Assembly: GCA_021815405.1 (NCBI GenBank)
Contig: JAKAGV010000006.1
Span: forward strand, 1 to 64,000
Source of the DNA: Bacteroidota bacterium
GTDB taxonomy: Bacteria; Bacteroidota; Ignavibacteria; Ignavibacteriales; Ignavibacteriaceae
DNA: 64,000 nt
Reading direction: 5' to 3'
Both the position numbers and the translations under genes were made by a program. Shown here piece after piece: positions 11,024 to 33,782 of the stretch (within the stretch, counting starts at the first letter, position 1; each line of letters starts with the position of its first letter). Under the pieces are notes generated by a model. The model was given only the letters and a program-made list of their open reading frames with translations, was not told the origin of the DNA and ran no database searches.

Positions 11024-12694
11024 TTATCTAATTAAGTTCGTTATATCCTGAAGCAATTGATCGGAAGTAGTAACTACCTTTGCATTCGCCTCAAAACCTC
11101 TCTGCGAGACTATCATATTCGTGAACTCCTGCGATAAATCAACATTAGATTGTTCCAGCGCGCCGGATTGAATTGTAGTTGCCGAGTTTTCTCCGGGAGT
11201 GTCAATCCTCGGATCTCCCGAATTTGCGGCTACAGAATACATGTTGCTGCCTGCGCTAACAAGTGCATTCGGATTTGTAAACGTTGCAACCATTACCTGA
11301 GCTAACGTTCTCGAATTACCGTTTGAGAATACACCAACAACATTTCCATATTGATCAATGTTTATGTTCGTCAAAGTGGCTGAAGCTGAACCGTCCTGGT
11401 TTAATGCTGCCAATTGCGAAGTAAGTGAAGTTTGAGTAATACCCGCAGTACCCGAGCCAAAGTTCAAGTTTATGTTTTGAGTTTCTGCACCATTACCCGG
11501 ATTATATGTTATCTGTGGAACAGGAGGAACGCCAGGAACTGTCGTACCGCCTTGTGTAATAGTTTGTATCTGACCATTGGAATCAAAAGACACTGTACCG
11601 CTGGTTGCACCGTTAAAGCTTCCTCCGTCAGTTGAAGGCACGGAAACTTTCCAATTCCAAGTGCTACCGTAAGCATGATCGAATTGTACGCTTAATGTGT
11701 GTGCATTTCCCAATGAATCGTAAATGCTGACAGATCCTATTACAGGAGCTTCTGTATTGCCCTGGTTAACCACTGCAGGTATGCTTGATGATGTAGTTGC
11801 AGTTGAAGATTGAGTGATTTTAGAAAAATCCAGGCTGAACGAAATATTGCCGTTTGTACTTGCTATTGTAACAGGGGAATTTGTACAGTTGCCTGAAGTA
11901 TTAAACGTTAATGCACTTAGTGCCGGAGTTGCAGTTGGCTGCGTTGCCAAAGGATTTCCGCCTGAATCTAATACTTGAAAACTTGGAGTCCATGTGCCGG
12001 CGTTTTGAGTATAGCTTACATTGAGAGTATATTTTGTACCATCTTTGCCGATGATTGGAATTGAAGTCGGTGCAGCAGGAGCTGTATAAGGCGCGCTTCC
12101 GGCTAAACTGTCTTCAAGATTAACTGTGTTAGTTGCAATAGTTGGTGAACTGCTCTGTAAGTTTCCTCCCCAGGATATGTTCTGTGTCTTAATAGCCGGC
12201 AGCTTTAAATTTTTATCTACAACAATGTCTTGAATAGCAGTACCCTGAGGGATTTGACCAAGACCATTTGCAACTTTTCCTTGTACAACAGCACCGTTCT
12301 GCGGATCGACTAGCTTTCCGTCAGAATCAAATTCAAATGCGCCTGCTCGCGAATAAAAATTCTGTCCGTTAGAATTAAGAATGAACATACCTGGACCTTG
12401 TAAAGCTAAGTCCGTTGTTATACCGGTTGTTTGAAATGTTCCCTGGTTCCAGTTCCTGTCTATGGAATTTACTTTCATTCCTAAGCCGATCTGGAAACTG
12501 TTCGTACCGCCCGTTGAATCGGTAGGATTGGTACCGGATTTAATCAGTTGGTTGAATGTATCGCTGAAAGTAACCCTTGAGCTTTTGAAACCGATAGTAT
12601 CGACGTTGGCAATGTTGTTGCCTATTACGTCCATCATCGATTGAAGATTTTGTAAACCGGATACACCGGAAAAAAGTGAATTGAGAAGTGCCAT
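11024..12694 (-). CDS. flgE: Flagellar hook protein FlgE
   Basis: This 556-residue axial protein polymerises into the hook joining basal body and filament. The conserved N-terminal rod/hook signature is at residues about 5-45 (SLFSGVSGLQNLQ, then IGNNIANVDTIGFK). The C-terminal coiled coil reads GALEQSNVDLSQEFTNMIV and closes with LLQDITNLIR. The middle is rich in Thr, Ser, Asn and Gly, as expected for the exposed D1/D2 domains. No Sec signal peptide is present because export is by the flagellar type III system. A strong AGGAGG precedes the ATG. It is the last gene of the operon and has a structured 5' leader. Confidence 0.95.
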   Translation of the reverse strand: MALLNSLFSGVSGLQNLQSMMDVIGNNIANVDTIGFKSSRVTFSDTFNQLIKSGTNPTDSTGGTNSFQIGLGMKVNSIDRNWNQGTFQTTGITTDLALQGPGMFILNSNGQNFYSRAGAFEFDSDGKLVDPQNGAVVQGKVANGLGQIPQGTAIQDIVVDKNLKLPAIKTQNISWGGNLQSSSPTIATNTVNLEDSLAGSAPYTAPAAPTSIPIIGKDGTKYTLNVSYTQNAGTWTPSFQVLDSGGNPLATQPTATPALSALTFNTSGNCTNSPVTIASTNGNISFSLDFSKITQSSTATTSSSIPAVVNQGNTEAPVIGSVSIYDSLGNAHTLSVQFDHAYGSTWNWKVSVPSTDGGSFNGATSGTVSFDSNGQIQTITQGGTTVPGVPPVPQITYNPGNGAETQNINLNFGSGTAGITQTSLTSQLAALNQDGSASATLTNINIDQYGNVVGVFSNGNSRTLAQVMVATFTNPNALVSAGSNMYSVAANSGDPRIDTPGENSATTIQSGALEQSNVDLSQEFTNMIVSQRGFEANAKVVTTSDQLLQDITNLIR

Positions 12695-12723
12695 TGTAAC
12701 CTCCTATGGATTTATCTAAATTT

Positions 12724-12777
12724 GATCCTGCGTCAGTCAGTCGGCAGAATCCAGAGCGTCCTAAAAGGTCCCGCTCT
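12724..12777 (-). promoter_or_regulatory. Tandem hairpins in the flgE leader
   Basis: Two adjacent stems lie 30-83 bp upstream of the flgE ATG. AGAGCG/CGCTCT pairs 12753-12758 with 12772-12777 and has an inner CCT/AGG. GATCCTGC/GCAGAATC pairs 12724-12731 with 12744-12751 and contains one pair that is G-U in the minus-strand RNA. The second loop carries a repeated GACTGACTGA. They could control flgE translation or act as an internal processing or attenuation site. No known riboswitch core is recognised. Confidence 0.4.
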
Positions 12778-12830
12778 ATTGTTAATTAATTATTTAATAC
12801 TAAAATCTGTTACACAAAGAACTCTTTAAT

Positions 12831-13205
12831 TTAAGCGAATACTACGCTGTCAATATTAGTAAATACATTTTCATTGCTTTCTCCAACCGGCATAGCAGTA
12901 ACCACTGTACGGTTCGGTATATTTACAATGAATGCAGTATCATTCATCATTACAAGTGAATCTTTAGAGCCTTTCTGCTCAGCCTTGTTTACAGCATCCT
13001 GGATCTTATTCAAATCCTGATCGCCTAATTGAATGTTTCTGCTCTCCAATCTCTTCAAAGCATGGTTTGAGAACTTTACTTTATCAAGCTCCTGCTCAAA
13101 GATTGAACTGAAACTTTCTGATCCGTTTTGAACCTTATTGGCAGTAAGGTCATTGCTGTGAGTAATCGGAATAAACGGTACGCTTATTCCATTTATCTCA
13201 GCCAT
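12831..13205 (-). CDS. Flagellar operon protein (TIGR02530-like)
   Basis: The 124-residue protein matches the small family regularly found between flgD and flgE. Its core is SNHALKRLESRNIQLGDQDLNKIQDAVNKAEQKG followed by SLVMMNDTAFIVNIPNRTVVTAM (described in parts). The open frame extends 21 codons further upstream to 13268, but the internal ATG at 13205 has GGAGG at good spacing and falls 1 bp after the flgD stop, so I use it. The role is not firmly established. Its place in the operon suggests a hook-assembly accessory or export-related factor. No signal peptide or membrane segment is present. Confidence 0.85.
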   Translation of the reverse strand: MAEINGISVPFIPITHSNDLTANKVQNGSESFSSIFEQELDKVKFSNHALKRLESRNIQLGDQDLNKIQDAVNKAEQKGSKDSLVMMNDTAFIVNIPNRTVVTAMPVGESNENVFTNIDSVVFA

Positions 13206-13206
13206 T

Positions 13207-13899
13207 TTAATTGCCTCCATTCGCATTAAGAATTTCAGAAATATCCGACAACTGATAATCTGCGCCATCTACAGTTAAAGTTGTGCTGCCAGTGCTGGAG
13301 AATTTCACTCCGTCTACTGTACCTACTTTGAAAAGATTAGCTGTCATATCGCTTCCGTCGGAACCTTTTGCTGTTACACTAAATGTATATTTACCGTTTG
13401 GTAATTTATTACCATTATTATCGGTAAAATCCCAGGAAAGTTTATTGTCGCCTGAAGTCGTAGGCATATTGCTGAATGTCTTTACAACGTTTCCATTGGA
13501 ATCCGTAACATTTATTGTCACCGAGGATGCCGTACCGGGAAGATTATATCCTAATTCAACCGAGTTTTGACCGTTGTTTTGAAGATCGCCTCCGCTGACT
13601 TCTACTTCTTTGCCAATCAATGTTGCAGAGAGAGTATTGTTAATCGATTGAGTTAATGCATAATTTGCGTTAATACTGGTTGTCATGGAATCGTTCAAGT
13701 TTTGAAGCTGCTCGAGTGAGCTGAACTGAGCAAGCTGTGCAGCAAACTGAGTCCCGTCCATCGGGCTCATCGGATCCTGGTTTTTCATCTGAGCAATCAA
13801 CAGATTCATAAAATCATTCTTAGTCATTGTTGTACTGCCGCTGCTTTGGTTTGTAGTATCCGTCGTGCTGTTTACTACGTTTGTTACTCCATCTACCAT
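13207..13899 (-). CDS. flgD: Flagellar hook assembly (cap) protein FlgD
   Basis: This 230-residue scaffold caps the growing hook and allows FlgE subunits to polymerise. The N-terminal FlgD signature MTKNDFMNLLIAQMKNQDPM (about 24-43) is followed by DGTQFAAQLAQFSSLEQLQNLN (about 48-69). The C-terminal half is the FlgD Ig-like/tudor region with the FSWDFTDNNGN-type motif (here LSWDFTDNNGNKLPNGKYTF). No Sec signal is present, as expected for a type III export substrate. It starts 11 bp after the fliK stop. Confidence 0.94.
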   Translation of the reverse strand: MVDGVTNVVNSTTDTTNQSSGSTTMTKNDFMNLLIAQMKNQDPMSPMDGTQFAAQLAQFSSLEQLQNLNDSMTTSINANYALTQSINNTLSATLIGKEVEVSGGDLQNNGQNSVELGYNLPGTASSVTINVTDSNGNVVKTFSNMPTTSGDNKLSWDFTDNNGNKLPNGKYTFSVTAKGSDGSDMTANLFKVGTVDGVKFSSTGSTTLTVDGADYQLSDISEILNANGGN

Positions 13900-24118: not shown

Positions 24119-25189
24119 TTAAAATGCCTTATTTATTATTTCCGGAATCTTTTCAAGCGGTGCAACTACATCAGCCAAGCCTGAATCAACAATCGCCTTC
24201 GGCATACCGTAAACAACACATGAACTTTCTTCCTGTGCGATACAGCTTCCGCCTAAATTTTTTAAATTTCTTATGCCTTCTAAGCCATCTTTTCCCATGC
24301 CTGTCATTATTATGCCCAGTGTTTGTTTGCCATACACTTCCACTACAGAATCAATCATAACATCAACGGAAGGACAATGCAAAGTATTTGATGGCTCTTT
24401 AGAAATTTTTATATAAACGCTACTAGAATGATTTCTTTCTGTTTTCATGTGAAAGCCGCCTGGCGCTATATAAACCACGCCGTTCCTTACGGCTTCGTTG
24501 TCTTCTGCTTCTTTTACTTCAAGCTCGCTTAAACTATTCAACCTATCTGCAAGTGATTTTGTAAATTTTGGCGGCATATGTTGAACAATAAACAACGGCA
24601 CGTTTATTCTTTTAGAAAGTAATGGAATTACTTTTTGAAGGGAAAACGGTCCACCCGTAGAAATTCCAAGTGCCACTGACTTATAATTTAGTTTCGGCAG
24701 ATTATTTATAATAACATTCTTGGTCTCCGATGGAGTTTTATTTAAACCTAATGATTGAACTCGTCTAAGCCTGTCTCTAATTGCTCGCTGCTTAACTATC
24801 TCTTTGATCTTACTAATCAGATCATCTTTGATATTAATAATATTTACATTTATGTAAGAAAGCTCTTTAGGTATAAAATCAACTGCACCATACTCCAGAG
24901 CTTTTAATGTTACTTCAGCGCCTTCGGTTGTAAGCGAGCTTACCATGAGAACAGAAGTAGGGCAATCCTTCATAATTTTTTGCAGCGCAGTTAATCCATC
25001 CATCCGCGGCATTTCTATATCGAGCGTTACAATATCAGGACGTAAGGATTTAACCATATTATATCCTTCTTCGCCGTCCTTAGCCTGACCAATTACTTTT
25101 ATACTTGAATCACTTTCAAGCATAATAGAAATTGATTTTCGCATGAATGCCGAATCGTCTACAACTACTGCTGTTATTGTTCTGATCAA
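24119..25189 (-). CDS. cheB: Chemotaxis response regulator protein-glutamate methylesterase CheB
   Basis: The 356-residue enzyme removes methyl groups from chemoreceptors and can deamidate them. The receiver domain (1-120) has acidic Asp11/Asp12 and phosphoacceptor Asp57 in TLDIEMP. The methylesterase domain (about 160-356) keeps the catalytic triad: Ser in ALGISTGGP, His in VQHMPPKF and Asp in GIIMTGMGKDGLEG. The start overlaps cheA by 4 bp (ATGA), so it is coupled to the kinase that phosphorylates it. Confidence 0.97.
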   Translation of the reverse strand: MIRTITAVVVDDSAFMRKSISIMLESDSSIKVIGQAKDGEEGYNMVKSLRPDIVTLDIEMPRMDGLTALQKIMKDCPTSVLMVSSLTTEGAEVTLKALEYGAVDFIPKELSYINVNIINIKDDLISKIKEIVKQRAIRDRLRRVQSLGLNKTPSETKNVIINNLPKLNYKSVALGISTGGPFSLQKVIPLLSKRINVPLFIVQHMPPKFTKSLADRLNSLSELEVKEAEDNEAVRNGVVYIAPGGFHMKTERNHSSSVYIKISKEPSNTLHCPSVDVMIDSVVEVYGKQTLGIIMTGMGKDGLEGIRNLKNLGGSCIAQEESSCVVYGMPKAIVDSGLADVVAPLEKIPEIINKAF

Positions 25190-27018
25190 TTTTCTGCTAT
25201 CTTATTTAAGAGTTCGCTAATGTCAAGGATCATAACTACGGTACCATCTCCCATTATTGTTGAGCCTGCAATACCGGTAATATTTCCAAGATAACTTCCT
25301 AAAGATTTTATAACTACTTCCTTCTGACCGCAAAGCTCATCTACTTTTATTCCAAATCTTTTTTCCGCAAGTCCGACAACAACAACATACTGCCATGCAC
25401 TTCTCTCCTTGCCATTGTTATTACCGTAAAGTACATTATCAATTCCAACCAATGGAATGACGTTGTCTCTTCTCCTTATGGCTTCGTGATTGTTGATCTT
25501 GCTAATGTCTTTCACGTTCACTCGAAGTGCTTCTATTACTGAGTTCAATGGTATGACGACAGTTTCTGAATTTACTTTTACAATCATTCCCTGAATTATT
25601 GCAAGTGTTAACGGCAGCTTGATTATGAATTTTGTTCCTTTTCCAACCACAGATTCAATACTGATTATGCCGCGAAGTTTGGCTACATTTGTTTTAACAA
25701 CATCCAAACCAACTCCTCTGCCGGAAACATTTGTTACCTTTTCTGCAGTTGAAAAACCTGGCAGAAATATTAGATTATATGCCTCGGTTTTAGAAAGCTC
25801 TTTAGCACGCTCACGAGTTATCAAACCTTTGGAAATAGCCTTTTCTTTTATGAATTCAGTATCTATTCCTTTTCCGTCATCTTCAATTGTAATTACAATC
25901 TGGTTGCCTTCCTGTTCTGCCGACAGTATTACCATACCAGAAGGATTTTTCCCTTCCTGTTCTCTTTTTTCAGGAAGTTCTATACCATGATCAACTGAAT
26001 TTCTTATAAGATGGACCAGCGGATCATTAATCTCTTCAATTAATGTTTTGTCAAGCTCGGTATCTTCGCCTTTGAGAATAAGATTAACTTCCTTTTTTGT
26101 TTCTCTTGCAAGATCCCTTACCAATCTCGGATAACGATTGAAGACTTTACCAATCTTTACCATTCTCGTCTTCATTACAACAAGCTGGAGCTCGTTAGTC
26201 ATCAGGTCGATTTGCTTTGTTGCGTCGCTAAGATCCCGCGATATCTTTGAGCCTTCATATTCAAGTCCGACTTCCGAATTTACCTGCGCAAGCCGATTAC
26301 GCCCAAGTACAAGTTCTGAAGCTATATTTAAAAGCTCATCAAGTCTTTCTACATCTACTCTTATTGAGTTTTCTGATTTTTTAGCAGAAGCTTGTTTGGT
26401 CTCTTCTTTAATTGCTTTTTGATTTTGTTCCTCTAATTCTTTTAAAGGCTGGCTGCCGGCGTTTGAACTGCTTTTATCTACTATTTCAATTGATGATGAT
26501 TCATTTTCATTTTTATTTTCTACTGATACAGCTTCAACAACTGCTTTAACTTTTACGCTGACATCTTTAGCATCTTCATCTTTGCCGTTAATGCCTTTTT
26601 CAATATTTTCAATAAGCTTGTTTAGCTGCTCTACTGTTTGATCTACTGAAACATTTTCGCTTAACTCAGTCTCGATAGAAACCAGTATTTCTTTTATCTT
26701 ATCATAAGCTGCAAGTATTCCATCCATCAATTCAGTATTCAGAAGGACTTCTCCCTTCCTAAGTTTGTTCAGAATATCTTCGCAGCGATGCGTTACTTTT
26801 GTAAGTTTATCAAGCCCTAAAAATCCTGAAGTTCCTTTAATTGTATGGAACGATCTAAAAACTTCATTTAGAAGTTCCATGTCATCCGGTCTGTTCTCAA
26901 GCTCAATTAAATTTAAATCGAGCTTCTCAAGGATCTCTTTCGTCTCAACTATAAAGCTGTCGACGATCTCCTTCATTTCCGGATCGCTCAACATTGAATA
27001 TGTACTTTCTTCGCTCAT
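25186..27018 (-). CDS. cheA: Chemotaxis histidine kinase CheA
   Basis: This 610-residue kinase couples receptors to CheY and CheB. The Hpt (P1) domain covers about 10-115 with phosphoacceptor His58 in RSFHTIKGTSGFL. Residues about 140-225 are a polar, low-complexity linker with no recognisable P2 CheY-docking domain. P3 dimerisation starts near DVERLDELLNIASELVLGRN. The P4 ATPase has HLIRNSVDHGIE (N box), EDDGKGID and GRGVGLDVVK. The C-terminal P5 CheW-like domain ends near residue 605. No separate cheW lies in the window. Confidence 0.96.
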   Translation of the reverse strand: MSEESTYSMLSDPEMKEIVDSFIVETKEILEKLDLNLIELENRPDDMELLNEVFRSFHTIKGTSGFLGLDKLTKVTHRCEDILNKLRKGEVLLNTELMDGILAAYDKIKEILVSIETELSENVSVDQTVEQLNKLIENIEKGINGKDEDAKDVSVKVKAVVEAVSVENKNENESSSIEIVDKSSSNAGSQPLKELEEQNQKAIKEETKQASAKKSENSIRVDVERLDELLNIASELVLGRNRLAQVNSEVGLEYEGSKISRDLSDATKQIDLMTNELQLVVMKTRMVKIGKVFNRYPRLVRDLARETKKEVNLILKGEDTELDKTLIEEINDPLVHLIRNSVDHGIELPEKREQEGKNPSGMVILSAEQEGNQIVITIEDDGKGIDTEFIKEKAISKGLITRERAKELSKTEAYNLIFLPGFSTAEKVTNVSGRGVGLDVVKTNVAKLRGIISIESVVGKGTKFIIKLPLTLAIIQGMIVKVNSETVVIPLNSVIEALRVNVKDISKINNHEAIRRRDNVIPLVGIDNVLYGNNNGKERSAWQYVVVVGLAEKRFGIKVDELCGQKEVVIKSLGSYLGNITGIAGSTIMGDGTVVMILDISELLNKIAEN

Positions 27019-27020
27019 CT

Positions 27021-27779
27021 TTAAGAGAATAATTTATCTATTTCGTCTTGAGTTGCTTTTGCATTAATACTGTTGATAAGTTCATCCGCAACATCTTGCC
27101 TTTCAGTTGATTTTGTATAAACGGCATCAGGATCAAAAGTAGCTTTTTCGGGTATGTCCAGTTTAACATTATCGACCGAATTAAGTTCGGTTTCATCAAG
27201 GTGTACTATCAATGAGGATAATCTCATCCTAACTGATTCAATTAGATGATTAACTGCTGCAAGCTGCTGCGAGGTAATATCCTGAACCTGAAGTGAAAGT
27301 GTAATCTTATAAACGTCGTTTCTTATCTTTCCGAAGACTTCCTCTATGGCGGGGATAGTTGAAGAAAATACATCAAGCGATTCATATTGTTTAATAAGTT
27401 TATCAGCAGCAGATGAAGATGGGATTAGCTTCTTTATCTCTTCCCATGACTTATTCTTTTCATCTTCCTTAGATTTAATATCGTGAATGTATTTATCCAC
27501 CTTCTCAACGTCCAAAGAAATGGAATCAACAACATCCAGTATTTCAGTCGTAGCTAATTCAGTCTGGCTGGAAACATTATTAATCTGATCCTTAGCTCTC
27601 GGAATTTTATTAGTTGTATCTGAAATAGAAGTGTTTATATCTTCAAGAAGCGGAACAGTCTCCTTCATAAAATCAATTAGGCTCTGGATTATCGGAATAA
27701 GTTTCTGACCATAACGAAAGACTATTTTCAGATCGTTAAGCCTTTCAAACAAATCGCTCATACTTGATATTTGTTTCAT
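27021..27779 (-). CDS. cheZ: CheZ-like CheY-P phosphatase
   Basis: The 252-residue helical protein lies immediately upstream of cheA, 2 bp apart. A long coiled coil carries LQVQDITSQQLAAVNHLIE, the CheZ catalytic motif with Asp167 and Gln171 at the same four-residue spacing as Asp143/Gln147 of enteric CheZ. The extreme C-terminus, ATQDEIDKLFS, resembles the CheY-binding tail of CheZ (and the FliM N-peptide). It should speed CheY-P dephosphorylation. The N-terminal third is divergent. The identification comes from motifs and operon place. Confidence 0.82.
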   Translation of the reverse strand: MKQISSMSDLFERLNDLKIVFRYGQKLIPIIQSLIDFMKETVPLLEDINTSISDTTNKIPRAKDQINNVSSQTELATTEILDVVDSISLDVEKVDKYIHDIKSKEDEKNKSWEEIKKLIPSSSAADKLIKQYESLDVFSSTIPAIEEVFGKIRNDVYKITLSLQVQDITSQQLAAVNHLIESVRMRLSSLIVHLDETELNSVDNVKLDIPEKATFDPDAVYTKSTERQDVADELINSINAKATQDEIDKLFS

Positions 27780-27791
27780 TTTTATCTCGTT

Positions 27792-28166
27792 TTATACGTT
27801 TACTATTTGATCTATTTTTTCTTTAAGAATTTGCGGTGTAAACGGCTTAACAATATAATTATTTACACGAGCATTAAGCGCTTCAATAATATCCTCTTTT
27901 ACGCCGCGGGTTGTAACCATTAAAATCCAAAGTTTCGACAGCTTTTCATCGCCGCGAATTGATTTGACAAGCTCCAGACCGGATACATTAGGCATGTTCC
28001 AATCTGTAATTACAAAGTTGATGGAGTTATCAGCAGAAAGTTTATCCAATGCTTCGCGTCCGTCTCCGGCTTCAACAAAATTATCGTAACTTAGATTCTT
28101 AAGTGAATTAATTACTATTCGTCTCATTGTAACGGAATCATCAACAACTAAAAATTTTAAATTCAT
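27792..28166 (-). CDS. cheY: Chemotaxis response regulator CheY (copy 2)
   Basis: This 124-residue single-domain receiver has Asp9/Asp10, phosphoacceptor Asp55 in ITDWNMPN, a switch Thr in MVTTRG and Lys in YIVKPFTP, all the residues of a working CheY. The DWNMP signature is the one most typical of motor-binding CheY, so this copy is the better candidate for acting on FliM. It lies 12 bp upstream of the cheZ-like gene. Confidence 0.92.
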   Translation of the reverse strand: MNLKFLVVDDSVTMRRIVINSLKNLSYDNFVEAGDGREALDKLSADNSINFVITDWNMPNVSGLELVKSIRGDEKLSKLWILMVTTRGVKEDIIEALNARVNNYIVKPFTPQILKEKIDQIVNV

Positions 28167-28176
28167 GTATAAGTCC

Positions 28177-28542
28177 TTAATTTAAATATTTTGAAACTTC
28201 GTATGCTATTCGTTTAGGATCGAACGGTTTAATAAGATAAGAATTAGCACCGCAATCCATTCCGCGCTGTATTTCTTCGCTTCCCGCAAGAGAAGATAAA
28301 ATGATGATCGGAATATCTCTATAATCTTCATTGTTCCTGATTGCTTTAATTAATTCAAATCCGTCGAGGTTCGGCATATTCAAGTCTGTGATTACAAGGT
28401 TTACCTTTTCTGACGGAAGCTTTTCCAATGCTTCCATTCCATCACATGCCGGAACGATATCGAATCCCTTCATCGTTAAGGCAAATGAAACAAATTTTCT
28501 GATTGACGGCGAATCATCTGCCACCAAAATCACTTTTTTCAT
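28177..28542 (-). CDS. CheY-like response regulator (copy 1)
   Basis: This 121-residue single receiver domain has Asp9/Asp10, phosphoacceptor Asp53 in ITDLNMPN, Ser in ILSSLAG at the switch position and Lys in YLIKPFDP. It differs from the second copy in the DLNMP signature and Ser for Thr, so it may serve as a phosphate sink or act on another target rather than the motor. It lies 10 bp upstream of copy 2 and just after cheR. Confidence 0.9.
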   Translation of the reverse strand: MKKVILVADDSPSIRKFVSFALTMKGFDIVPACDGMEALEKLPSEKVNLVITDLNMPNLDGFELIKAIRNNEDYRDIPIIILSSLAGSEEIQRGMDCGANSYLIKPFDPKRIAYEVSKYLN

Positions 28543-28551
28543 TTTACTTGA

Positions 28552-29451
28552 TCACTCCTTTTTATATCCAATGGTTTTGGGGAAGCTGACAATTGTAAAG
28601 GCTTTCGATATCATATGCAGCGTTTCGGCATATCCTATAAAAAGATAACCGCCCTTATTCAATGAATTATATAAATTAGAAACAACTTTAACTTTAGCTT
28701 TCATATCAAAATAAATTAATACGTTTGCACAAAATATTATGTCGAAGTTAACCATCGACCTCATATCAAAATCTTCGTAAAGATTTAATAACTTGAACGA
28801 CACATTTTTCTTAACCGCGGGATCTATCTCAAAAACATTTCCCTTCTGTTTAAAATATTTTTTAAGATAGTATCCGGGTGTATTCCGGATGGAATATTCT
28901 TTGAACAAACCGCTCTTAGCGGCTTCAATAACCATATTGTTTATGTCGGTACCAATAATTTCAACTTCAAGATCAGGATATTTTGGCTTCAATAAATCGG
29001 CTATTATAATCCCGATAGAATAAGCTTCTTCGCCCGAAGAGGACGCTGCGCTCCATATTCTTATTTTCACTTTGCCGGTTTTACGTTTTGCGGCAACTAA
29101 TTCGGGGATTACCGTTGTTACCAAAGCATCAAGCTGAGGCGGATTTCTAAAGAAAAAAGTTTCATTTATAGTTATCGCTTCATACAAGTATTTCTTCTCA
29201 TCTTCGCGGGTACGGTTGTATTTTAAATAATCGAGATATTCCTCGTAAGATTCCAGGCCGAGATGATTCATGCGCTTTAATAGCCGGCTTTCAAGCAAAT
29301 ATTTCTTATTATCCTGAAAATAAATTCCGCAGCTTGAATAAATTAATTCTCTGAATTTTTCAAAGGACAAATCTGACAGCTTTAAGTCAAATGCAGTTCT
29401 TACCGGAACCGCTTCCGTCTGCGATAGAATAGTATTCGGATATTGAGCCAT
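28552..29451 (-). CDS. cheR: Chemotaxis protein methyltransferase CheR
   Basis: This 299-residue SAM-dependent methyltransferase adds methyl groups to receptor glutamates. The N-terminal helical domain (about 28-100, FEKFRELIYSSCGIYFQDNKKYLLESRL in parts) is followed by TINETFFFRNP. The Rossmann SAM site is IRIWSAASSSGEEAYSIGI, then the IIGTDI acidic loop and NFDIIFCANVLIYFD. The ATG overlaps the stop of the HEAT-repeat gene as TAATG, indicating tight coupling. Confidence 0.96.
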   Translation of the reverse strand: MAQYPNTILSQTEAVPVRTAFDLKLSDLSFEKFRELIYSSCGIYFQDNKKYLLESRLLKRMNHLGLESYEEYLDYLKYNRTREDEKKYLYEAITINETFFFRNPPQLDALVTTVIPELVAAKRKTGKVKIRIWSAASSSGEEAYSIGIIIADLLKPKYPDLEVEIIGTDINNMVIEAAKSGLFKEYSIRNTPGYYLKKYFKQKGNVFEIDPAVKKNVSFKLLNLYEDFDMRSMVNFDIIFCANVLIYFDMKAKVKVVSNLYNSLNKGGYLFIGYAETLHMISKAFTIVSFPKTIGYKKE

Positions 29452-30860
29452 TATTTATTATCTGTTTTCGTTTCTAATTTTACAGCCGATCTCTGCGATA
29501 AAATATATTTCGCTCTTTCGTTCACCATCTCTTCAGCATCATCAGTTAATTTTTTCAATGCCGTATTTGCTTCAATAGAATTGACTTCACTCAATATTTC
29601 CAACAGCTTCAGCCTATTCCATAAATTATCATCTTCAACCATTTTATCAATAAATAACATAGCCGTTCCTTGATCGATTGTAAATAAAAGCTCAACTGCT
29701 AAACGCCTTGCTTCTTCATCTGGGTTATCGAGACACTTTGCAAAAGCATCCGAAAGATTACGTATCTGGATATTCGAAAGCATTTTTACAAATATTTCTC
29801 TGTTCCCTTCTGTAAATTCTTTTACAAGTTCCAACAGACTTCTAATATTTCCGCTCCTGTTATCTACAGTATCCGGAAGCGCCAAAAAAAGTATTTGCGG
29901 ATGCGAAAATATTTTTGGTTTAACTATCTCATCAAGCTCTGCACTAGTGCCGTATACTTTAATGCAAGTCAAGATTGTTTCTTCATCATCAAATGCGGTT
30001 ATTAAGTTTACAGCCGAGTTCATATATTTCTCGTGACCGCAATTTACTGTTTGAAGTAAGGCATTCTTCATTTTTTCGTCATAAGGAATATCAAGGCTGT
30101 ATTTTTCCTTCAGTTTATAAATTGAATTTACAATTGGCCAAACTATAGGTCCAGATGTATTTTCAAGCTCAGAAACTAAAAAGAAAAACGATTCCTCATC
30201 ACCCACAGCGCCAAGGCTCTCAATCATAGAAAATTTTGTAAGCTCGTCTTCCTCGTCATATCTTGATGTAATAAAATTGAGCGCTTTTTTTGTCCCTATT
30301 TTACCAAGAGCTTCAATAATTGTAGGCTTAAACAATTCATTTCGTTCATAGAATTGAAGCAGATTGTCCAGCGATTCTACACAGCTTAAACTGCCAAGTG
30401 CCTCAACACATGCGAGGACTACATTATCATTCTTGCAAGTGTTCATTACTTCTAAAATATGCTGTGATGGTTTTTTATCGCCGATTAATCCGAGGACATC
30501 AATCAGAAATTTTTTATCGTCGTCGTTTCCGCTGTCAATATATTCCAGCATTGCATCTACGGCTCTGCTACCAATCTTAATCAGAATTTCTCCGGCTAAA
30601 TTTCGTGTGGCAATACTTGGTGAAGAAATATATTTTACAAGAAACTTAGGTATCCATGGGTTGGGATTGTAGCTTAGCGTCATATCAACAGCGTTTCGAA
30701 CGCCTTTATCCCGGTCTTCAACAAGCTCACATAACAACTCGGTAGTTTCATCGTCAAGTTCCTCTTCCATAAACGACGCAACTGCTGCGCTCCTTTCGGA
30801 AGGATCCTCAGATTTCAGAAGCTTCTTGGAGTCGATTTCTAAATTTTCAGCCCTAGCCAT
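29451..30860 (-). CDS. HEAT-repeat protein heading the chemotaxis operon
   Basis: The 469-residue cytoplasmic protein is built of about 12 alpha-helical HEAT/PBS-lyase-type repeats. Typical pieces are ERSAAVASFMEEELDDET, DRDKGVRNAVDMTLSYN, ASLGAVGDEE-like turns and a final ANTALKKLTDDAEEMVNERA. No signal peptide, membrane segment or enzyme motif is present. It is the first gene of the che operon and its stop overlaps the cheR start, so it is made with the chemotaxis enzymes. HEAT solenoids bind other proteins. An adaptor or scaffold role for the receptor-kinase array is an inference. Confidence 0.85.
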   Translation of the reverse strand: MARAENLEIDSKKLLKSEDPSERSAAVASFMEEELDDETTELLCELVEDRDKGVRNAVDMTLSYNPNPWIPKFLVKYISSPSIATRNLAGEILIKIGSRAVDAMLEYIDSGNDDDKKFLIDVLGLIGDKKPSQHILEVMNTCKNDNVVLACVEALGSLSCVESLDNLLQFYERNELFKPTIIEALGKIGTKKALNFITSRYDEEDELTKFSMIESLGAVGDEESFFFLVSELENTSGPIVWPIVNSIYKLKEKYSLDIPYDEKMKNALLQTVNCGHEKYMNSAVNLITAFDDEETILTCIKVYGTSAELDEIVKPKIFSHPQILFLALPDTVDNRSGNIRSLLELVKEFTEGNREIFVKMLSNIQIRNLSDAFAKCLDNPDEEARRLAVELLFTIDQGTAMLFIDKMVEDDNLWNRLKLLEILSEVNSIEANTALKKLTDDAEEMVNERAKYILSQRSAVKLETKTDNK

Positions 30861-31150: not shown

Positions 31151-31549
31151 TCACTTAGCTGTTAAATACGGGCTGTATTTTTTATCTGTGCCTTTTATAT
31201 GCTCAATTAACCAATCTTTAAGAAATACCAACACCTCATTAGACATAAATAATGAACCCGATGCAAATTGCTCACTGAACTCCACAACTTTTTTTGTTAA
31301 GGCATCATGTTCACTTTTATGCTGCTGGTAGCCGGGAAAATTTTTCTGCCTCATTAATTCCTCTTCGGCAGAGAAATGATACTTAGTATAATTGATTAAT
31401 TCGTTCAGAATCACTCCCAGCTTTTCTTTGCCTTTTCCTTCCTTCATTGCATTATGAAGTTCATTTATTAAATCAACGAGCTTTTTATGCTGATTATCTA
31501 ATCCATTTACTTTTACACTCAGGTCTTCAGACCAATTAATTAACGCCAT
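31151..31549 (-). CDS. Bacteriohemerythrin
   Basis: The 132-residue four-helix protein holds a non-heme diiron oxygen-binding site. All seven expected ligands are visible: His21 (DNQHK), His58 and Glu62 (YHFSAEEE), His77 and His81 (HKSEH), and His117 and Asp122 (WLIEHIKGTD). It is stand-alone, not fused to a receptor, so it is more likely an oxygen store, carrier or scavenger in the cytoplasm. It lies 142 bp downstream of the chemoreceptor gene on the same strand, and an oxygen-related link to the receptor is only suggested by that context. Confidence 0.95.
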   Translation of the reverse strand: MALINWSEDLSVKVNGLDNQHKKLVDLINELHNAMKEGKGKEKLGVILNELINYTKYHFSAEEELMRQKNFPGYQQHKSEHDALTKKVVEFSEQFASGSLFMSNEVLVFLKDWLIEHIKGTDKKYSPYLTAK

Positions 31550-31691
31550 TTTTATTACCTTTATATTAAATAGTTTGAGCTAACATTACTTCTTCAGCTT
31601 GAGCATACTTGAAATTGAGCCGGAACCCGCAGATAAATTTAGACTTTCACTTTAAAGACATATTATTAAAGTTTAAAGTCACTTACCTGTT

Positions 31692-33782
31692 TCAATTATA
31701 ACTTTCCTGGTACTTGACGACTTTACCGTTTCCTTTTGACAAACTTGAATCAACACTTATCTTGAAATGGCTTATTAGTTTTTCCAACTTTTGAGTTAAA
31801 TTGCTCAAGTCCTCAGCAGACCTGGCGATTTGTTGAGAGCCTGCTGCGCTTTGCTGAGTTACACTGCTAATCGATTCAATATTCTTGCTAATTTGTTCTG
31901 CGGAAACTGATTGCTCTTCACTTGCAGCAGCTACTTGTGCAGCTACATCTGTTACCTTCTGCGACTCTTCAATAATTTCTTTCAACACTTCACCTGCTTT
32001 ATCTGCAAGCTCTTTGCCCTTGTCTACTTCTGTCTTTCCTAACTTCATGGAATTAACAGCTTCAATTGTTACTTTCTGAATCTGTTTTATCATATCAGCA
32101 ATTTCCTTTGTAGCTTTAGTTGTACGCTCGGCAAGTTTTCTTACTTCATCAGCTACAACTGCAAAGCCTCTACCCTGCTCGCCTGCACGAGCAGCTTCAA
32201 TAGCTGCATTTAAAGCAAGCAGATTGGTCTGGTCCGCAATATCATCAATTACCTGAATTATTTCACCGATTGCATCACTATTTTTGCCAAGAGTTTCAAC
32301 CGTTTCAGCAGATTTTTTTACAACGTCGGCAATTCGTATCATACCTTTTATAGTATCTTCAACTACACTGCCTCCGCGTTTTGCTTTTTCGCCGGAGCTT
32401 CGAGCAGTGTCTGCTGCAATTGAAGCATTTTTAGTATTATCCATAATAGTCTTTGTCATCTGCTCGATGGACCGAGCTACTTCAGTAGTCTGTTGTGTCT
32501 GTTCACCCGCTCCCGCAGCTAATTCTTCAACACTTGAGGAAATTTCGTTCGAAGCACTTGCAGTTGCAAGTACGGCTTCGTTGACTTTTTGAAGCGCAGC
32601 AGAAAGCGATTCATTTACAATATTTATATTGTTCTTTATCAACTGATGATCGCCTTTGTAATCGCCGGTTACTTTTTCGGTAAAGTTTCCATCAGCCATC
32701 ACTTTCAGTATTTCGGATGACTCATTTATAGGCGCCACAATAGCATCTAATATTGAGTTTATTCCTTCTATCAACTTACCCCATTCGCCTTCAAATTTAG
32801 AAGCATTTCCGCGCACCTTAAGGTTGCCTTCTTCATTTGATTTTATGAGAATGTCAGCTTCTGCAAGCAATTCCTTAATCGTATCTGCTTCCTTGTTAAA
32901 GGAAATTGCAAGTGCATCTTTATCTGAAGCGAGCTCGACTTTATTAATTACTCCAGATGCAATAGATTCGGCTGCACGTATTTTGTCTTTCTGAGCTTTC
33001 TGAAGATCCTTTAGCATTGCTGCCAGCTCACCGACTTCATCTTTTGAGTTGTTGTTTATATCAACCTCATAATTGCCGAGAGCGAATTCTTTCACTATAT
33101 CTTTCAATTTGTTTATCGGTTTGGTAATTGCAGGTGCAAGATAAAAGACACAGAAGAGTAACGTAATCAAACCGAAAATTGCCGTAACAATTGTAAAGAT
33201 CATTGATGCGGTGACAGAGCTCTTTGTTGATCTGTCTAACTCTTCTGCTTTATCATTAAGTTGTTTATGAATATCTTGAAATTTCTTTAGCAGTTTAACG
33301 CCGACTTGCTCTCCGGATGAAGTAGCAATATCTGAAGCCATATCATAAGTATGCGTTGCAGATGCACTTATTATTGCGTCGGCAACAAGGCTTTTGTAAT
33401 CACTCCAGATAGATTTAGCTTCAGTCATTTTTTTCTTCATGCCAGCATCTAAATTGCTTTTTAAAAGCAAATTAATCGTACTGTCGCTTTCAGCCTTCAA
33501 ATGATTGTACTCATTGTAATTATCGTTAAACTTGGATGCAAAAGCAGGCATGGAGAGCTGCATCATTAAAAATTGTGTTCTTTGAAAATTCAGATAAACG
33601 TTGTTAATCTGGTTTTGTGGAGTTAGATATTCTTTGAAGATCTGATCTTTCAAAGTCAGCATTTTATTTAGCTGCATAAATCCAACGAAGGCAATGATAC
33701 AAGAAATTAATGCAAGAAAGGCATAACCACCTTGTATTTTTCTAACAAATTTAATATTTGCAAACCACTTCAACTTCTTCAC
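31692..33782 (-). CDS. Methyl-accepting chemotaxis protein
   Basis: This 696-residue receptor has a membrane segment at about 18-37, a periplasmic four-helix-type sensor domain (about 40-190), and a second membrane segment at about 194-217. HAMP follows from 218, with a second HAMP-like coiled region around 320-385. A long cytoplasmic signalling coil has the hairpin tip [21 protein letters not shown] near residue 514-533. Methylation-type Gln/Glu pairs flank the tip. It lacks a C-terminal NWETF tether for CheR/CheB. It is 35 bp after the TonB-domain gene and probably shares its FliA-type promoter. Confidence 0.95.

Follow-up and report, generated by a model that had tools for sequence, protein, structure and literature searches.

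The classical che operon of the E. coli type comprises cheR, cheB, cheY, cheZ and cheA, and we know of no HEAT gene in it, nor of a second CheY of the kind referred to below as CheY1. Textbook accounts of chemotaxis treat CheR as unregulated, and additional CheYs as phosphate sinks or alternative switch proteins. Cpc7 and CheY7 of the Che7 system of Myxococcus xanthus were reportedly described by Darnell et al. in 2014. Cpc7 is a HEAT protein which, according to a review, interacts with the single-domain CheY7 (PMC11514114). OE2401F, a HEAT_PBS protein of Halobacterium, has CheD and CheF as interaction partners, and cells from which it is deleted no longer switch (PMC2666748). FrzF is a CheR-type protein whose TPR solenoid controls which receptor sites get methylated (PMC2535941).

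Here, we relate to these systems a HEAT gene found in a window of Ignavibacteria DNA, the window being the whole stretch of 64,000 nucleotides that was analysed. As with Cpc7, a HEAT protein is found in a che gene cluster, and the two are likened by description and repeat type, both being HEAT solenoids tied to a che system with a single-domain CheY. Cpc7 and CheY7 nevertheless represent one system in one organism, which governs development (PMC11514114, PMC9040617), whereas in much of the class Ignavibacteria the HEAT gene belongs to the core of the main che operon and is followed by cheR. Like OE2401F, which is required for taxis in the archaeon (PMC2666748), it is a HEAT_PBS-type protein encoded in a che region, but OE2401F works with CheD and the archaeal CheF, and the Ignavibacteria protein outlives the loss of the flagellar switch. 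No match to the CheF/DUF439 family occurred among the nine operon and flank proteins scanned. The CheR-TPR proteins FrzF and WspC likewise associate an alpha-solenoid with a CheR, but by fusion of TPR repeats (PMC2535941, PMC3447774), while HEAT is a separate protein. No fusion of HEAT to cheR was found: in the window they are separate reading frames, and at three other loci (L149, L155, L194) HEAT stands without an adjoining cheR. The operon shares cheR, cheB, cheY, cheZ and cheA with the E. coli type, which is without HEAT and without the CheY1-type second CheY. In view of Cpc7/CheY7 and OE2401F, that a CheY may have a HEAT partner is no new idea. New as far as we searched are core membership in the main che operon across much of a class, the tie to CheY1 and survival without flagella; literature searches returned no recognised description of a che HEAT gene in Ignavibacteria. 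HEAT is a core chemotaxis component missing from the standard parts list for Ignavibacteria, and its pairing with CheY1 in this large, poorly studied group points to an extra, little-known branch of chemotaxis signalling.

The HEAT gene and its operon in the window

The operon reads HEAT-cheR-cheY1-cheY2-cheZ-cheA-cheB on the minus strand, with the following members.

29451..30860, minus strand: HEAT-repeat solenoid protein of 469 aa, gene 1 of the che operon (open reading frame, profile matches, AlphaFold2)
28552..29451, minus strand: cheR (PF01739, E 1.3e-52, with PF03705), its start overlapping the HEAT stop (TAATG)
28177..28542, minus strand: CheY1, the first single-domain response regulator and phyletic partner of HEAT (PF00072; co-occurrence)
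27792..28166, minus strand: CheY2, a canonical CheY-like regulator (PRK10610, 138.9 bits, under the model's own cut-off of 189)
27021..27779, minus strand: diverged CheZ (PF04344, 35.2 bits, cut-off 30.7)
25186..27018, minus strand: cheA, with Hpt, dimerisation, HATPase and CheW-like domains (profile matches)
24119..25189, minus strand: cheB, with receiver and methylesterase (profile matches)

The frames after cheB we take, from their translations, to be flgB, flgC and fliF. For the CheZ frame (27021-27779), the NCBIfam CheZ models score far under their cut-offs although the Pfam CheZ model passes. Upstream of HEAT, at 31151-33782 on the same strand, lie bacteriohemerythrin and MCP genes, which are likewise upstream of HEAT in eight of the nine other HEAT genomes of the genus, the ninth contig being short.

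An earlier note, made from the sequence alone, had placed a HEAT gene at 29451-30860; the reading frame holds, with its strand corrected to minus, since it runs from an ATG at 30860 down to 29451, and frame 1 of the plus strand at the locus is full of stops. Its description as a 469-residue HEAT-repeat protein without an enzyme motif is borne out. HEAT_2 (PF13646) matches four stretches (88.7 bits, E 3e-25, curated cut-off 27.7) and HEAT_PBS (PF03130) also passes (23.3 bits, cut-off 20.9); PF02985 (HEAT) stays at 16.7 bits under its cut-off of 23.5, and no enzyme family rose above cut-off in the profile scan. By NCBIfam equivalog cut-offs, identity with the phycobilisome proteins NblB, CpcE or CpcF was not found (NblB 71.3 bits versus 300, CpcF 23.4 versus 220). 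AlphaFold2, run on 76 sequences (the window HEAT and related loci), models a solenoid of helices only (mean pLDDT 92.9, pTM 0.81), and the Foldseek matches listed from the PDB are designed alphaReps, other engineered proteins and general armadillo/HEAT scaffolds. Conserved residues are spread along the protein, and an alignment of 28 HEAT sequences has 33 invariant columns, mostly within the N-terminal half. A sigma-70 scan 5′ of HEAT gave four matches, about chance level (shuffle mean 2.3, sd 1.5).

The TAATG overlap of the HEAT stop with the cheR start, read earlier as translational coupling, is exact in the window. By the nearest downstream ATG, however, HEAT and cheR overlap in only 3 of 28 orthologues (L001, L003, L004) and are separated by gaps in the rest; coupling of this kind is thus a local detail. 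Two relatives, L012 and L011 (one operon with L039), have flgB/flgC immediately upstream of HEAT in divergent orientation, which supports HEAT as the operon's first gene. The cluster indeed lacks cheW, as the earlier note had remarked, but the scaffold role that it drew from this absence does not follow, because a stand-alone CheW-domain frame (179 aa) lies elsewhere in the same genome, on contig C23 at 216375-216785. HEAT as a replacement for CheW was rejected on the same ground. Asp10, Asp53, Ser84 and Lys105 of CheY1, to which we assign roles by presumed equivalence to CheY, are invariant in a 38-row alignment (A2), and judged by these residues CheY1 looks able to be phosphorylated.

Linkage of HEAT to cheR

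HEAT was found in 28 of the 41 nearest genomes, one copy each, and chemotactic Ignavibacteria usually have one orthologue per genome. A scan of named species contigs returned 95 HEAT relatives, and we retained the best 80; the contig titles read Ignavibacteria, Melioribacter, Stygiobacter, Bacteroidetes/Bacteroidota, Chlorobi or simply 'bacterium'. Among these best 80 of 95, cheR directly follows HEAT in 76 contigs, and the other four contigs end less than 450 nt from HEAT. In the stretches from the nearest genomes cheR follows HEAT in 27 of 27, which adds little because 24 of them have a HEAT already present among the 80. A scan of the phylum gave HEAT matches in 59 of 395 genomes. An automatic rule placed cheR next to HEAT in 42 of 53 further stretches, three of which share their HEAT with the 80; the remaining 11 are orphans (L149, L150, L194), a relocated HEAT (L155), a split operon (L157), unrelated proteins (L171, L172) and HEAT-less stretches (L199, L202, L206, L207). 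In L157 cheR does follow HEAT, but its match begins late and was missed by the rule. The unrelated pair (genomes G334 and G244; 899 and 927 aa) are generic HEAT proteins, near which no che gene matched, and were dropped as orthologues. The earlier note's proposed check, whether homologues keep a conserved che linkage, thus comes out in its favour: linkage to cheR is the rule among true orthologues, with few exceptions.

Seven HEAT genomes lie outside the class (families f23, f33 and f44). Their order is HEAT-cheR-cheY1-cheY2-cheZ-cheA, plus cheB where the stretch reaches, with cheZ not separately called in L166 and L162 ending inside cheA. The che operons outside the class (L154, L163-L167) branch among Ignavibacteria operons beside family f8, which may mean inter-class transfer. 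As a separate observation, the gene directly upstream of HEAT in L168 (10072-11499) is presumably a sigma-54-type response regulator, and receiver frames of similar length occupy that place in other stretches of family f11.

HEAT and CheY1 across the class

We searched 217 class genomes for HEAT (A3), CheY1 (A2), FliM (PF02154) and the CheA dimerisation domain (PF02895), and after thresholds counted HEAT in 76, CheY1 in 74, FliM in 77 and flagellar-type CheA in 76. HEAT and CheY1 occur together in 74 genomes, HEAT alone in 2, CheY1 alone in none at the threshold used, and neither in 141. HEAT and flagellar-type CheA share 72 genomes and are apart in 4 and 4; HEAT and FliM share 65, with 11 genomes having HEAT without FliM and 12 FliM without HEAT. 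Among the 89 genomes having any of the four, phi with HEAT was 0.92 for CheY1, 0.64 for CheA and -0.07 for FliM, values which, like the counts, ignore descent and include some fragmented genomes. HEAT matches were kept at 217 bits or more, and those at 60-78 bits (G531, G438, G535, G334, G540) were dropped, as were weaker second matches in genomes already counted. CheY1 was kept at 158 bits or more; the CheY1-like matches dropped at 120-136 bits were second matches in G270, G369, G251, G454, G449 and G493 and the sole match of G184, which if counted would make CheY1-alone 1 rather than 0. Flagellar-type CheA was kept at 58 bits or more, leaving out G338, G438, G184, G274, G353, G020 and G531 at less than 56 bits. 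In G184 and the six genomes with dropped second matches, the CheY1-like regulator is on the same contig as a second-type CheA; that of G184 (131-136 bits) adjoins this CheA, with no HEAT (L191).

G089 and G278, the genomes with HEAT alone, gave no match to CheA, and their HEAT lies near flgB/flgC and other regulators. Their congener G502 has an orphan HEAT (L194) as well as a che-operon HEAT with CheY1 beside it (L195). The HEAT proteins of G089 and G278 look like the orphan paralogue, being 42% identical to the orphan copy versus 29-31% to the che copy. Orphan paralogues of this genus (g49; L149, L150, L194) have response regulators, a hybrid kinase and flgB/flgC as neighbours, and no cheR. 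Two further genomes have HEAT and no flagellar-type CheA: in G373 the contig end cuts the operon after cheY2 (L176), and G338 has only HEAT-cheR-cheY1 in a 19.5-kb stretch (L168), its CheY1, with a changed acidic pocket, being left out of A2. The trio HEAT-CheR-CheY1 is retained in two split operons, L157 (the rest on L186) and L168. In G061, HEAT has moved out of the operon (L155) and CheY1 has been left in it (L185). By its distribution, HEAT is tied to one component, the operon's first CheY, rather than to the array in general.

Absences point the same way, as all seven HEAT-less operons of the same che type are also without CheY1, although cheR normally separates HEAT and cheY1. They are those of G469 (L202), G196 (L177), G389 and G533 (L178, L206), G175 (L183), and G057 and G104 (L181, L182); CheY1 was searched genome-wide in the class only, and for G175, G057 and G104 its absence refers to the operon stretch, that of HEAT to the genome. 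CheA clusters of other types (L179, L180, L184, L189, L190, L191, L193, L207) were left out of this count. A tree of 55 operons was built from five joined Che proteins. In it, HEAT-less G469, set against its congeners G436 and G458 (L203, L204), lies within its genus together with congeners that have HEAT (support 1.000), G196 has HEAT-bearing G061 as its sister (support 0.996), G175 is beside the HEAT-bearing families f23, f33 and f44, f20 (G389, G533) branches at the base of a clade with HEAT, and a long branch leads to f29 (G057, G104). We take this to reflect three or four joint losses of HEAT and CheY1; f29 may never have had either. No operon of the same type was seen with one of the two lost and the other kept, bar the relocation in G061. 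Joint presence and absence across the class, also without flagella, offers a genetic test of what the additional CheY does. In L202, two genes, which we take to be CheW-like and DUF342-like, precede the place where the congeners of G469 have HEAT (11424-13245).

Among the 76 HEAT genomes, 11, all with HEAT, CheY1 and CheA, have no FliM match at a completeness of 90-100%, and a FliG search found none in these 11 versus 7 of 7 FliM-bearing genomes. Since they keep HEAT and CheY1 without detectable FliM or FliG, HEAT is not only a flagellar-switch adaptor. One of them, G286 (L146), keeps HEAT, CheR and CheY1, while nothing in its operon matches CheY2 and its CheZ frame is reduced to 112 aa. PilT-family matches are strong in eight of the 11 (five over the cut-off, three at 310-314 bits versus 319.1) and missing or negligible in three; as PilT does not track HEAT in these genomes, a type IV pilus output was rejected. 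FliM-less members of family f4 (L145, L147, L198, L200, L201) have two tandem CheZ-like frames.

Partners and possible roles of HEAT

Partial correlations of tree distances were calculated for the seven proteins of 92 complete operons (91 distinct). The textbook pairs CheY2-CheZ (0.45) and CheA-CheB (0.45) were recovered, together with HEAT-CheR (0.43; 0.38-0.47 with clades left out) and CheR-CheY1 (0.42; 0.34-0.57), all four being at least 0.34 whichever clade is omitted. HEAT-CheB (0.27; 0.21-0.56) and HEAT-CheA compete with HEAT-CheR, HEAT-CheA at 0.41 being unstable (0.02 to 0.47 with one clade left out). The picture is similar in 45 de-replicated operons (HEAT-CheR 0.50, CheR-CheY1 0.36, HEAT-CheA 0.37). 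Gene order may contribute, because the four strong pairs are operon neighbours; the neighbouring pairs CheY1-CheY2 (0.04) and CheZ-CheA (0.03) are without signal. For HEAT-CheY1 the correlation is about zero (0.01), and a direct, specific interface is therefore not supported by the tree-distance test. That CheR comes under less constraint once HEAT and CheY1 are lost was considered and rejected for want of a consistent pattern: CheR is not more diverged in G469 and G196, is 3-8 points more so in f20 (G389, G533), where CheZ is also partly lower, and in G175 divergence is raised in each of the five proteins, most of all in CheR and CheB.

The direct results are the linkage, the joint presence and absence, and the persistence of the pair where FliM/FliG and, in one operon, CheY2 are missing. 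On this comparative evidence, we give about even chances to HEAT being a dedicated scaffold or partner of CheY1 that acts on the signalling or adaptation side. Cpc7 with CheY7 (PMC11514114) and the solenoid-controlled CheR-type FrzF (PMC2535941) serve as precedents. Apart from the near-zero HEAT-CheY1 correlation, the relocated HEAT of G061, the pair kept in G338 without a flagellar-type CheA, and the CheY1-like regulator of G184 without HEAT count against it. CheA would phosphorylate CheY1, as the intact phosphorylation site and the operon place suggest, and the HEAT solenoid would bind CheY1, probably in its phosphorylated form, and present it to a target. This target would most likely be on the signalling side, because the pair is kept in genomes without a detectable flagellar switch. 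CheR would be the best candidate, because the trio is kept in two broken-up operons and the divergences of HEAT and CheY1 each track that of CheR. HEAT and CheY1 would then give CheR phosphorylation-dependent control, as CheB has via its own receiver domain. A trio with CheR in the middle is possible, as a hypothesis and not a finding, because there is no consistent CheR release and gene order may add to the signal. In its full form, the proposal has CheA-phosphorylated CheY1 on HEAT tuning CheR within a methyltransferase complex controlled by phosphorylation, both in Ignavibacteria and in certain other lineages of the Bacteroidota phylum; so stated, it is tentative and rather unlikely. If true, CheR as well as CheB, and with them both arms of receptor adaptation, would be under kinase feedback.

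HEAT might instead be an effector that carries phosphorylated CheY1 to a target outside the chemotaxis core, in another motility or cell process, which we consider unlikely, if by no means far-fetched. The joint presence with CheY1 would be the same, HEAT is kept in the 11 genomes without FliM/FliG matches, orphan HEAT paralogues stand beside other regulators, and Cpc7/CheY7 in Myxococcus sets a precedent (PMC11514114). Yet HEAT and CheR remain together, PilT, as one candidate organelle, does not track HEAT, and an unsystematic look outside the operon brought up no further conserved partner. As an adaptor, HEAT might link CheY to the flagellar switch, on the model of OE2401F and CheF in haloarchaea. 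This would suit the proximity of the che operon, and of the orphan paralogue, to flgB/flgC, and deletion of OE2401F abolishes switching (PMC2666748). Such an adaptor is improbable here, with no FliM match in 11 of the 76 HEAT genomes, FliG matches in none of the 11, and 12 FliM genomes without HEAT.

Of the earlier suggestion of a scaffold or adaptor for the array, the scaffold or adaptor part stays likely, but the array in general is not singled out, since 4 of the 76 class genomes with flagellar-type CheA are without HEAT and the array therefore does not need it. A structural scaffold of the receptor array or of CheA could draw on the linkage to cheA and on the HEAT-CheA correlation in both operon sets, but this correlation collapses when one clade is left out, CheW is present elsewhere in the genome, and the four CheA genomes without HEAT are all without CheY1 too; we give this scaffold little credence. 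A dedicated partner of CheY1 is also to be weighed against a bystander carried in the operon. HEAT proteins are common, and one copy has been relocated (L155), but a bystander is very hard to credit, given the conserved residues along the protein, the near-fixed linkage and the joint absence with cheY1, which is not HEAT's neighbour.
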